Positions 7,705-53,346 of a stretch of 64,000 nt of DNA are shown here, one piece after another. A program made the position numbers and the translations under genes. Source of the stretch: Crocinitomicaceae bacterium (GTDB lineage Bacteria; Bacteroidota; Bacteroidia; Flavobacteriales_D; Crocinitomicaceae). How positions within the stretch are numbered: the first letter of the stretch is position 1; the number at the start of each line of letters is the position of its first letter. The notes beneath the pieces were generated by a model. The model searched no databases. It saw only the letters and a program-made list of their open reading frames with translations, and was not told the DNA's origin. The stretch spans positions 1 to 64,000 of the forward strand of contig JAKVAQ010000031.1 in assembly GCA_022447665.1 (NCBI GenBank), given 5' to 3'.

Positions 7705-7791
7705 ATACTTTTAGGTTTAAATTATTTAAAATGACATAAATGAACTTTATTCGGTGTTGATTTGTTATAAAAATAATAAACAGCACAAGTA

Positions 7792-7968
7792 ATGATAAAA
7801 ATTATACAAAAATATTATCCAGTATTTTTGGCATTAATTAGCTTTATACTTTCTGTTTTTCTTTGGTACGGTGGGAATGAAGAGGATGGAATGTACGTTG
7901 GGCTTTGGGTGCCTTCAATACTTGGTTTTGCAATTTTTATTCGACTTGTACAAAATGATAAGTTATGA
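7792..7968 (+). CDS. Small membrane protein, 58 aa
   Basis: A 58-codon ORF with ATG at 7792 and TGA at 7966-7968. The product has two hydrophobic segments (about residues 8-26 and 38-52) separated by an acidic loop, GGNEEDGMY, so it should be a two-helix inner-membrane protein. Its stop overlaps the start of the next gene in the arrangement ATGA (7965-7968), a sign of translational coupling that supports both ORFs being real. No function is recognised. Confidence 0.6.
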   Translation: MIKIIQKYYPVFLALISFILSVFLWYGGNEEDGMYVGLWVPSILGFAIFIRLVQNDKL

Positions 7969-8168
7969 ATACAACAGCAATTTTCATCATAGGAACCCTA
8001 ATCTTCTCAACTTATATGTTTTTTTTAGTGCGGATGATATGGAAGCAGCATAAAATACAGGAGTTAGAAGAAAAGAGAAATAATTTCAAACTAACAAAAG
8101 TAGAAGGTGGTCTTAGGGATAATGAAATTGAGTTATATCCTAAAAAGAATAAGTCTAAATCAGCTTAA
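7965..8168 (+). CDS. Small single-pass membrane protein, 67 aa
   Basis: A 67-residue protein with one N-terminal transmembrane segment (about residues 4-24) and a highly charged C-terminal tail (ELEEKRNNFKLTKVEG and a Lys-rich end). It is coupled to the preceding 58-residue membrane protein through a 4-base ATGA overlap, so the two are likely made in fixed ratio and may form a small membrane complex. No family is recognised. It converges on the E1 gene. Confidence 0.65.
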   Translation: MNTTAIFIIGTLIFSTYMFFLVRMIWKQHKIQELEEKRNNFKLTKVEGGLRDNEIELYPKKNKSKSA

Positions 8169-8200
8169 ATCGAAAAGAATAAAATTGATAGTTCCAAATT

Positions 8201-34230: not shown

Positions 34231-34313
34231 GCGCAGGTGGTGGAATTGGTAGACACGCCATCTTGAGGGGGTGGTGACCTATGGTCGTGCAGGTTCAAAT
34301 CCTGTTCTGCGCA
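34231..34313 (+). tRNA. tRNA-Leu (anticodon GAG)
   Basis: An 83-base type II tRNA. The acceptor stem GCGCAGG pairs with TCTGCGC (one G-T). The D arm includes TGGTAGACACG. The anticodon stem CCATC/GGTGG surrounds the loop TTGAGGG, so the anticodon is GAG. A variable arm and the T arm GCAGGTTCAAATCCTGT follow. The 3' CCA is not encoded. Confidence 0.95.
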
Positions 34314-34318
34314 CTTTT

Positions 34319-34347
34319 AAGGAACAATTCGTTGTTCCTTTTTTTTT
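34319..34347 (+). terminator. tRNA terminator with TTCG tetraloop
   Basis: AAGGAACAA-TTCG-TTGTTCCTT is a perfect 9-base-pair stem with an extra-stable UUCG loop, followed by a run of nine T. It lies 5 bases after the tRNA. Confidence 0.95.
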
Positions 34348-34412
34348 GTTAAAGAAATCTGAAAGTCCTAGAAATCATTAACTTAGGAACAAAAACTTTT
34401 AAAAAAATTGAC

Positions 34413-34631
34413 ATGAAAAAGTTTTTCATCTTCTCAGTAGTAGTTGGAGGTTTAGCTTTCACTGCTTGCAAAAAAGATCACACTTGACGTTGTGAAATAA
34501 CAACTCTTGGAATCACTTTAACAACAGATACTGTTTTCCAAGATATGTCTAAGTATGATACTGAAGCAGCATGTACTGGTTTAAATGTTGACGCTGGTAC
34601 TTTAGGTTCATCGACTTGTGCATTACAATAA
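34413..34631 (+). pseudogene. Paralogue of the 72-aa Cys lipoprotein interrupted by one in-frame TGA
   Basis: The 219-base frame from ATG 34413 to TAA 34629-34631 has exactly the length of the intact gene at 34862-35080. By eye about 50 of 72 residues match, including the signal peptide and the end TGLNVDAG. A single TGA at 34485-34487 (codon 25) interrupts it; the aligned codon in the paralogue is TGT (Cys 25). No other stop or indel is present. Simplest reading: a recent nonsense mutation, or a sequence error. TGA is used as an ordinary stop elsewhere here (recF, the gene at 7792), so general reassignment is excluded. Recoding as selenocysteine is formally possible but weakly supported. No matching promoter was seen upstream, but a strong terminator follows. 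Confidence 0.8.
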
Positions 34632-34654
34632 ACTCGTTTATTAAGTTAATTGTG

Positions 34655-34684
34655 AGGCTGACAGCAATGTCAGCCTTTTTTTTT
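34655..34684 (+). terminator. Terminator with GCAA tetraloop
   Basis: AGGCTGACA-GCAA-TGTCAGCCT is a perfect 9-base-pair stem with a GNRA loop and a run of nine T, 23 bases after the interrupted lipoprotein gene. Confidence 0.95.
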
Positions 34685-34799
34685 CTTATTTTACAAAATT
34701 ATATATTGTCATTAAGTTTAATGGTTGTTACTTCGCTTTTAAGCTATCCGTTCTCAATAATTAAGAATATAGATTTGATAAAAGTCTGGAATTATCATG

Positions 34800-34807
34800 T
34801 ATTTTTG
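34800..34807 (+). promoter_or_regulatory. -7 element TATTTTTG
   Basis: Lies 54 bases before ATG 34862, with TTTG at 34774-34777 (spacing 22, longer than usual). The leader would be about 50 bases. The 230 bases between the two lipoprotein copies hold this box and the terminator. Confidence 0.45.
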
Positions 34808-34861
34808 CAACATTAATGCAAAGAACTTCGTAAATTCGAAAAAAATTTAAAGAAATTAACT

Positions 34862-50792: not shown

Positions 50793-51149
50793 TTAATATT
50801 CCTGTATCAGCACTTCAGTTGGGATACGAAGAGCCTTGCTGAGCTGCCTTACCATGTCGAGCGTGAGCTTTCTTTTTCTGTTGAGTATTTCACTGACACG
50901 GCTTTTGAAGCCAATCATGGCAACTAAGTCCTTTTGTTTCATTCCCATTTGTTCCATTCGGAACTTGATGGCTTCTACGGGATCTGGCATCTCGATTGGG
51001 AAATGCTCGTTTTCGTACTTATCAATAAGAATAGATAGTATTTCAAGCTCGTCACCTTCCTTGGTTCCAGGCTTAGCGTCAAAGATTTTTTCAAGTCTGT
51101 CAAGAGCTTTATTGTAGTCCTTATCAGAGCGTATAGGTGAAATATTCAT
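50793..51149 (-). CDS. higA: HigA-like antitoxin (XRE family)
   Basis: A 118-residue protein with an N-terminal helical toxin-binding part and a C-terminal helix-turn-helix: FRMEQMGMKQKDLVAMIGFK then SRVSEILNRKRKLTLDMVRQ. The HTH neutralises the toxin and represses the operon. It starts 3 bases after the toxin gene, in toxin-first order, which is the usual HigBA arrangement. Confidence 0.88.
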   Translation of the reverse strand: MNISPIRSDKDYNKALDRLEKIFDAKPGTKEGDELEILSILIDKYENEHFPIEMPDPVEAIKFRMEQMGMKQKDLVAMIGFKSRVSEILNRKRKLTLDMVRQLSKALRIPTEVLIQEY

Positions 51150-51152
51150 AAT

Positions 51153-51446
51153 CTAAACTTTAGTTGCGTCTATTTTGTCGTATTCGGCATGAGTTCCAAT
51201 GAACCTGATCCAAACGATTCCATAGTCATAGTTAATTCTAACAATGAGTCTGTGGTGATTACCCTTGATATTGAATACCATTCGGTTGTCCTCAATAATA
51301 CTTGCACTAGGATAGTCCTGTTTAATGTCGTTAGGTGAAGTCCACTTAGCCTCTTCAGCTTCTCGAAACCACGCTTTCAGTTGTTGTTCACAGTCATTAT
51401 GTTTTTCCCAGTATTCTCTGAGTGTCCGTTTGGCAATTACCCTCAC
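51153..51446 (-). CDS. higB: HigB-like mRNA interferase toxin
   Basis: A 97-residue protein of the HigB toxin family: VIAKRTLREYWEKHNDCEQQ, KWTSPNDIKQDYPSASIIED, RMVFNIKGNHHRLIVRINYD and the C-terminal VWIRFIGTHAEYDKIDA. RelE-fold toxins of this type cut mRNA on the ribosome. The start is GTG at 51446, with a -7 box 18 bases upstream. Both genes look intact. Confidence 0.9.
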   Translation of the reverse strand: MRVIAKRTLREYWEKHNDCEQQLKAWFREAEEAKWTSPNDIKQDYPSASIIEDNRMVFNIKGNHHRLIVRINYDYGIVWIRFIGTHAEYDKIDATKV

Positions 51447-51743: not shown

Positions 51744-52403
51744 CTAATGCCCATCCTTCTTTAACAAATGCGGATGCTTGCGCTTAAACTGGTTTAAACG
51801 TGGAATAGATACAGCTTTAATATAGCTATGATTCGGATGTAAACGCTCATAGTTTTGATGGTAATCTTCACCCATCCAAAAAATTTCAAAGGCCATAACC
51901 TCACTCGCTACTTTTAATCCTTTTGCCTCAAGCTCAGCAATTTTTTCTTCAATAATGATTTTCTCATCGGCATTATTATAAAAAGCGATGCTGCGATATT
52001 GTGAGCCCCAATCAGGTCCTTGTCCGTTCACTTGCTCCACATCTTGCGAACCAAAATACACTTCTACCAACTCCTTAAAGCTTACTTCATTTGGGTCGTA
52101 CCAAACTTGAACTGCCTCTGCATGTCCTGTTGCCCCTGTGTTTGAATCTTCATAAGTAGGGAAACGGGTATGACCACCGGAGTAACCGTTGTACACTTCT
52201 TTAACGCCCTGTACGCTTTCGTAAATGGCTTCTACACACCAAAAACATCCGCTGGCAAAATGAGCTTTCTCTAAGCCTGTGGTATCAAAGTCATGCTTTA
52301 TTTCATTTGAGTTTGAAGCACCAGTTGCACTAGAAGTTTGACATGAAAAAGAAAAGAAGCCTGCGGCGATTGAAAGGGTAAACAGAAAAGTATATCGTTT
52401 CAT
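51744..52403 (-). CDS. msrA: Peptide-methionine (S)-S-oxide reductase, lipoprotein form
   Basis: A 219-residue MsrA that reduces methionine-S-sulfoxide in proteins. The catalytic motif is AHFASGCFWCVEAIYESVQG. NGYSGGHTRFPTYEDSNTGA, TGHAEAVQVWYDPNEV, the GSQYRSIAFY strand and GEDYHQNYERLHPNH are all intact. An N-terminal lipoprotein signal (FFSFSCQTSS) places it at the envelope, so it likely repairs exported proteins. Confidence 0.95.
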   Translation of the reverse strand: MKRYTFLFTLSIAAGFFSFSCQTSSATGASNSNEIKHDFDTTGLEKAHFASGCFWCVEAIYESVQGVKEVYNGYSGGHTRFPTYEDSNTGATGHAEAVQVWYDPNEVSFKELVEVYFGSQDVEQVNGQGPDWGSQYRSIAFYNNADEKIIIEEKIAELEAKGLKVASEVMAFEIFWMGEDYHQNYERLHPNHSYIKAVSIPRLNQFKRKHPHLLKKDGH

Positions 52404-52495: not shown

Positions 52496-53123
52496 ATGCT
52501 TAAACTCTTCAAAAACTGGCCACCAAGTCAGTACAAGTATCTGATAAAATTTGGCTCACAGAAAACTCAAAAGATAAGGGCTTGTACAATGAGCTTTCGA
52601 ACCACGTGGCGGAAGGAAAAATCGTTTGCCTTTTCTATTATTTTGAGGGAACAAAAACGTGGTTGGTAGAATTGCTAGAGCGTAATAACATGAGTTTCGA
52701 AGAAAATTTTGAGCAAGCACCTTCAAAATCCTATTAATTGACGCGAACGAATATGCGAAATCCGATAAAATAGATTCCTTTTTACGAGAGAATGTAATTA
52801 CGCAGGATTACGAAGTTGCATTTGGTGAGCATTTTCCAGCCTATGATTGGGAAGAGCTAGTTTTACATAAGCTTAAGCTATTAATAGGAATAAACAAACC
52901 TGTTTCTTTCTATGTGGCGCTGGAAGATCCTTTAATGAAGAAGTTTGGCGGAGATAAACTCATCAATGCCATGAAGTCCATGAAAATGAAGGAAGAAGAA
53001 TCAATTCAACATTCTGCCATTTCAAAGTCCATTGTGAGAGCGCAACAAAAACTGCAGAGCAATAAAACTGGTGATTTACGCGCTAAAACGGCCCAGGAAT
53101 GGATTGATTTCAACGTGCGGTAG
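52496..53123 (+). pseudogene. SecA-like mini-protein gene broken by two one-base deletions
   Basis: Three frames join into one ~207-residue protein if one A is added to the A-run at 52511-52515 and one to that at 52725-52728. They are ATG 52496 (MLKLFK), then LATKSVQVSDKIWLTENSKD to NFEQAPSK, then ILLIDANEYAKSDKIDSFLR to the TAG at 53121-53123. The last third matches the SecA region after helicase motif VI: VSFYVALEDPLMKKFGGDKL and ESIQHSAISKSIVRAQQKLQ resemble the SecA pattern FYLSLEDDLMRxFGS ... IxHxMISKxIExAQxKVE. It is far shorter than SecA and lacks Walker A. Either a real frameshifted gene or homopolymer sequencing error. Confidence 0.7.
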
Positions 53124-53124
53124 A

Positions 53125-53346
53125 TTACTTTGAAATAGTAATGGTAAGGTGGTCAATCGCCACTTTATCACCATCACGCAATTTATTACGCTTACGAAAT
53201 TCTACTTCACCATTGACTTTCACGGCACCGTCTTCAATTAATAGTTTCGCATGCCCTCCGGTTTGCGCAATTTCCATCACCTGAAGTAGTTTGTTTAATT
53301 CTATGAATTCGTCGTTCGGACGAAGTGTAAAAGTAATTTCTTCCAT
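53125..53346 (-). CDS. S4-domain RNA-binding protein (YbcJ-like)
   Basis: A 73-residue protein consisting of one S4 RNA-binding domain: FIELNKLLQVMEIAQTGGHA, KLLIEDGAVKVNGEVEFRKR and the final DKVAIDHLTITI. E. coli YbcJ-type proteins bind RNA near the ribosome; the role is not well defined. It follows the phosphatase gene by one base in the operon. Confidence 0.9.
   Translation of the reverse strand: MEEITFTLRPNDEFIELNKLLQVMEIAQTGGHAKLLIEDGAVKVNGEVEFRKRNKLRDGDKVAIDHLTITISK

Follow-up and report, generated by a model that had tools for sequence, protein, structure and literature searches.

The window analyzed here is a 64,000-nucleotide stretch of DNA from a Crocinitomicaceae bacterium. Between msrA and a small S4-domain gene, both on the minus strand, lies a plus-strand gene that is split into three reading frames. 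The original prediction had placed a protein of about 207 residues at 52496-53123, broken at two A-runs, and a switch of the codon-usage frame at both runs upholds this layout. We call the protein mini-SecA. The features are as follows.

51744-52403, minus strand: msrA, flanking the mini-SecA gene.
52496-53123, plus strand: the whole frame-broken mini-SecA gene, about 207 codons in three frames, supported by the codon-usage frame switch and the family alignment.
52496-52515, plus strand: piece 1, with an ATG start and a hydrophobic-basic N-terminus, MLKLFK, matching MFxFFKKK of intact relatives.
52511-52515, plus strand: A-run, first frame break, placed by the codon-usage frame switch.
52516-52734, plus strand: piece 2, the N-terminal half of the NBD2-like domain (DKIWLT...FYYFEGTKTWLVELL).
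52725-52728, plus strand: A-run, second frame break, also placed by the codon-usage frame switch.
52728-53123, plus strand: piece 3, holding the C-terminal NBD2 half, the start of the scaffold helix, the family tail, and the stop (open frame 52728-53120, stop codon 53121-53123).
52905-53072, plus strand: the segment best kept from SecA (SFYVALEDPLMKKFGGDKL...ESIQHSAISKSIVRAQQKLQ), aligned to positions 740-795 of NF009536 (E 6e-14).
53073-53120, plus strand: the family-specific tail DLRAKTAQEWIDFNVR, consensus A.S..EWF..N, not in SecA.
53125-53346, minus strand: the small S4-domain gene on the other flank.

The three pieces are one coding gene and not chance frames. This follows from codon-usage log-odds, trained on the window's long genes, in which the best coding frame shifts at both breaks and the pieces score like real genes. 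Per codon, piece 2 scores 0.18 and piece 3 scores 0.19 in its own frame, compared with an average of 0.197 (sd 0.06) for the window's intact genes. Every other frame of these two pieces scores negative. The gene has about 23% of the length of E. coli SecA, near the quarter that had been predicted, and 18% of the length of its own genome's SecA, a 1138-codon open frame on contig C7. The source genome carries this one normal SecA and, as its sole mini-SecA, the window copy.

Over its full length, mini-SecA corresponds to SecA NBD2 and, after it, the beginning of the helical scaffold. Residues 60-115 of piece 3 align with the NCBIfam SecA model NF009536, although the score of 51 bits lies below the curated cut-off of 1493, and the segment at 52905-53072 is 48% identical to the genome's own SecA. 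Across the family, this junction (LEDPLMxxFGxxRI...IxHxMxxxSIxxAQxK) shares about 45-70% of its roughly 50 residues with canonical SecA. PF21090 (P-loop_SecA, gathering score 27) gives the window piece 24.6 bits and intact relatives 33.1, 39.2, and 40.3 bits, the latter solely via the last 31 positions of the domain. The SecA2 model TIGR04397 gives 17.1 bits against a cut-off of 1085.

The N-terminal half of the family is strongly diverged. A profile made of the N-terminal parts only matches canonical SecAs weakly (E 5e-6 to 0.01), and in these SecAs the matches are colinear with, and upstream of, the C-terminal match. The middle segment (FYYFEGTKTW...) falls within NBD2. When the whole family is aligned to the NBD2 of Bacteroidota SecA by hhalign, the probability is 99.7% (E 2.1e-26, 171 columns). 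A profile search of the PDB has its best match, at E 1.8e-22, in E. coli SecA residues 416-629; in all, 22 different SecA sequences score E 2.4e-9 or better. In one intact member, residues 14-195 match NF009536. Family alignments to SecA start at NBD2, and NBD1 is absent.

The predicted fold agrees. We modeled an intact Crocinitomix member with AlphaFold2, using an alignment of six rows only (pLDDT 80.6, pTM 0.80), and the predicted model has an NBD2 fold. In a Foldseek comparison of this model with the PDB, ranks 1-29 are all SecA or SecA2. Its structural alignment to T. maritima SecA (3jux 437-642) has a Z of 15.2 and 3.6 Å over 185 residues. Domain-2 chains of other SF2 helicases (SNF2/Chd1 type) reach Z 11-13 (VIA-align), which we take as the shared RecA fold only.

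Profile and structure comparison therefore both bear out the SecA relation of the original prediction. That prediction had rested on the C-terminal third, matched to the stretch after motif VI and the scaffold start, as the NF009536 alignment also finds. It had guessed that the middle could be a remnant of the second helicase domain, which the N-terminal profile and the whole-length profile and fold alignments now support. The ancestry stood, but the extent did not, since SecA homology spans all of the protein, from NBD2 to the start of the scaffold, and not a part of it.

The window copy had also been regarded as a lone fragment, and here the original prediction failed. Mini-SecA is a family of proteins, and at least five Bacteroidota families contain intact copies that are under selection. 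Intact relatives were found in 11 cases (174-218 aa), in Crocinitomix and in four other families: f46 (genomes G721 and G843), f19 (G605 and G468), f15 (G711 and G545), and f40 (G552). All 11 have a single intact frame of about 175-220 codons, and the window copy has this frame with two breaks. It is almost certain that the locus descends from the SecA NBD2 and belongs to this family. Identity between the mini-SecA families is about 26-33%, which makes them very divergent.

The distribution search covered Bacteroidota. Of 306 evenly sampled Bacteroidota genomes, six carry mini-SecA besides the window's genome, and five of these six also have a separate full-length SecA. G552 gave two matches, with mini-SecA alone among the matches listed. 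Within Crocinitomix (genus g7), intact mini-SecA is carried by 4 of 9 sampled genomes. Such a patchy distribution, in both samples, means that mini-SecA is not a core part of export.

All 12 members lack the Walker A pattern (motif I), as had been predicted, and motifs V (GRGTD) and VI (RGRxGRQ) are gone from all 12 as well. The 28 canonical SecAs all have motif VI; they were picked by motif V, so their 28/28 for motif V is no test. What the family has instead is a tail, [ST]..[EKD]W[FIL]..N, that follows the AQxK helix in 12/12 members and in no SecA. The window copy's version is TAQEWIDFN. No curated family model for mini-SecA was found, and a literature search, whose scope was mostly outside subscription journals, found no paper on a mini-SecA-like protein.

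Intact mini-SecA is under purifying selection along its length and hence functional. The dN/dS values of unsaturated or nearly unsaturated pairs lie at 0.06-0.23. They are 0.07 for G047/G046, 0.12 for G047/G041, and 0.23 for G605/G468; for G721/G843, the N-terminal part, which is unsaturated, gives 0.06. A further value is 0.09.

Gene neighborhood is not conserved between the families. There is no conserved operon partner in Crocinitomix, f46, f19, f15, or f40, and no export genes adjoin mini-SecA in the examined loci. Because gene context differs between families, with no shared synteny, no operon points to export. Near the Crocinitomix mini-SecA, on the opposite strand, a gene for a 117-aa lipoprotein-like protein (INTIKKLHKTYKNGEISEC...NIWGQPHVDKYDLGD) is conserved (L062:7187-7540; L064:7196-7549; L139:7993-8346). 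The N-terminal mini-SecA profile also weakly matches (E 0.0017) a protein of 121 aa (L057:1432-1797) that appears to carry a C-terminal membrane helix; this protein is probably unrelated, and we rejected it as a relative.

Several other candidates were set aside. Mini-SecA as phage or plasmid cargo was rejected, as tblastn gave only pieces or NBD2 stretches resembling SecA proper. In PHROGs, one model of 806 positions matched, a length that suggests full SecA. Unannotated 'Bacteriophage sp.' records (MT839061, MT835502, MT835970, and similar) carry SecA pieces that are probably bacterial DNA in phage data sets. PADLOC gave no match to a defense system, and among RNA elements one tRNA alone in the window reached the Rfam thresholds.

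Elsewhere in the window, a probable HigBA pair lies on the minus strand at 50793-51446, made up of a HigB-type toxin gene (PF09907, E 1.2e-34) and, after it, a gene for a helix-turn-helix protein that resembles an antitoxin. At 7705-8200 there are 496 bases without a long gene (28% G+C), in which codon use is coding-like on the plus strand at about 7795-7960; this may be a short or decayed gene. At 34315-34861, after tRNA-Leu(GAG) (34231-34314), a stretch of 547 bases is A+T-rich and has a weak minus-strand coding signal.

What might intact mini-SecA do? With its nucleotide-binding motifs gone, it would not hydrolyze ATP. Its action would be in trans, by imitating NBD2, on some partner that every one of these genomes has, with SecA as first candidate. 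The kept NBD2-scaffold junction, together with the hydrophobic-basic N-terminus, would dock on the SecA motor or on SecYEG-bound SecA. Once docked, mini-SecA would tune SecA activity or oligomeric state. For E. coli SecA-N68, the N-terminus MLIKLLTKVFGSRN and the RIFASDRVSGMMRK stretch have been found to mediate oligomerization through the motor domains, and the end of EDALMRIFASDRVSGMMRK (residues 591-609) takes part in it (PMC5603524). The kept junction contains the counterpart of EDALMRIFASDRVSGMMRK. The mini-SecA N-terminus, MFxFFKKK, is similar in character to that of SecA but less amphipathic by hydrophobic moment, and the N-termini of mini-SecA (MFGFFKKK) and Crocinitomix SecA (MFGILKKL) are too short to call homologous.

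We tentatively suggest that mini-SecA acts on SecA, as an ATP-incompetent NBD2 mimic in trans. The original prediction had likewise allowed that the protein, if expressed, could regulate SecA or compete with it. Conceivably, it is a dedicated Bacteroidota modulator of SecA that arose from NBD2, docks at the motor or oligomer interface, and sets export activity, and that has been lost in many lineages including the window's. The varying gene context and the patchy distribution count against such a modulator, as does the high divergence, which makes a function unrelated to SecA possible.

That other function has at least as good a claim, though we would not call it probable. Here mini-SecA would be an NBD2-derived scaffold that binds a new partner via its tail, with no export role left. 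All members conserve the tail, which arose within the family; this fits such a partner, and so do the lost nucleotide site, the strongly diverged N-terminal half, and the lack of adjoining export genes. However, what the family has best retained from SecA is the junction of NBD2 and scaffold, which an adaptor independent of SecA would have no need to preserve, and no known partner for the tail turned up.

The window copy poses a separate question, namely whether its two breaks are real. Beyond them it has no in-frame stop, no loss of codon bias, and no sign of decay, and the family alignment shows that it keeps most family-conserved residues, including the W and N of the tail. Within the 64 kb window, where the frequency of breaks was judged, none of about 60 other genes has a break comparable to these two in about 600 bases. 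This is despite 721 A/T runs of at least four bases in 41 kb of their coding sequence, and a true pseudogene is therefore likelier than poor assembly. We regard a true pseudogene as likely, and its pseudogenization as most likely recent. The two single-base breaks would have inactivated the gene while its body was otherwise undamaged. Since the copy is broken, full-length mini-SecA is probably not made in this organism. We hold with reasonable confidence that the locus is both a mini-SecA and broken.

It is rather unlikely, by comparison, that both breaks are sequencing or assembly errors and that the living organism has an unbroken gene, which would leave the family reading unchanged. The position of both breaks in A-runs speaks for such errors, as do the retained codon bias, conserved residues, and freedom from stops. 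Yet errors would have had to strike one gene of about 600 bases twice and spare the numerous runs of its neighbors, and the broken runs are short (5 and 4 bases).

Still further from likely is that the full protein is made by reading through both breaks, whether by programmed -1 ribosomal frameshifting or by transcript slippage. The breaks do have the same sign, both are at A-runs, and the coding frames are clean. Neither site, however, has an X XXY YYZ slippery heptamer, the RNA downstream folds about as stably as shuffled sequence (z -1.29 and +0.70), and the intact relatives use one frame. A-runs of five and four bases are also short for polymerase slippage, which again counts against recoding.

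A last question is whether the relatives share one origin. For each family, we built a profile without it and scored the held-out members against the 28 canonical SecAs. Every held-out mini-SecA outscores all 28. The window copy, when left out, scores 146.5 bits (E 4.5e-41) compared with 103.3 for the best canonical SecA, and the margin is narrow for the f40 member (111.1 versus 105.3 bits). Wherever the set included the SecA of the host genome, other SecAs were closer to that host's mini-SecA, and the host's ranked 8 to 28 (of 26-28 SecAs). In a tree, a branch supported at 100/99 has all mini-SecAs on the same side. Because the branches are very long, we base the single origin on the tail that the members share and on the leave-one-out comparison. 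The family most likely had one old origin from the SecA NBD2 and the first scaffold turns, as judged from these comparisons.

That the relatives are instead repeated local truncations of each host's secA, functionless debris in decay, is scarcely credible: patchy distribution and the lack of synteny shared between families would suit it, but own-genome SecAs are never closest where tested, the family stands apart from all SecAs in leave-one-out profiles, domain ends and tail are the same in all members, dN/dS is 0.06-0.23, and the tree, for all its long branches, keeps the mini-SecAs together. We rejected independent truncation of secA as contradicted by the dN/dS values and the leave-one-out profiles.

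SecA is an essential, near-universal bacterial motor, and to our knowledge few direct protein regulators of it are known. A selected NBD2 that stands alone and is free of the ATP site would be a natural probe of the control that NBD2 and the scaffold helix exert on the motor. Mini-SecA clearly exemplifies how one domain of essential machinery can become a separate gene. At present, family libraries would label it a SecA piece at most. The interest centers on the intact family, the window copy being probably dead.

Among known systems, the second domains of other SF2 helicases (SNF2/Chd1 type) share the general RecA-like domain-2 fold with mini-SecA, but their sequence and fold scores are below those of SecA and they match neither the SecA junction nor the scaffold helix. 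SecA2 is, like mini-SecA, a second SecA-related gene beside SecA. It is a full-length ATPase with all motor motifs, whereas mini-SecA is a single domain without NBD1 and motifs V and VI. SecA-N of E. coli is a shortened SecA that consists of the N-terminal region only, presumably lacks ATPase activity, and reportedly derives from full-length SecA (PMC7137807). Mini-SecA instead retains NBD2, the other part of SecA, and is encoded by its own gene. With the SecA ATPase (TIGR00963; NF009536/PRK12901; PF21090 P-loop_SecA, PF07516 SecA_SW), it has in common the fold and colinear sequence of NBD2 and the first scaffold helix, and the junction LEDxLMxxFGxxRI...IxHxMxxxSIxxAQxK is strongly kept. It differs in being without NBD1, the preprotein cross-linking domain, the wing domain, the two-helix finger, and motifs I, V, and VI. 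Mini-SecA is thus not a SecA ATPase, but a protein of about one-fifth the length with a C-terminal tail of its own.
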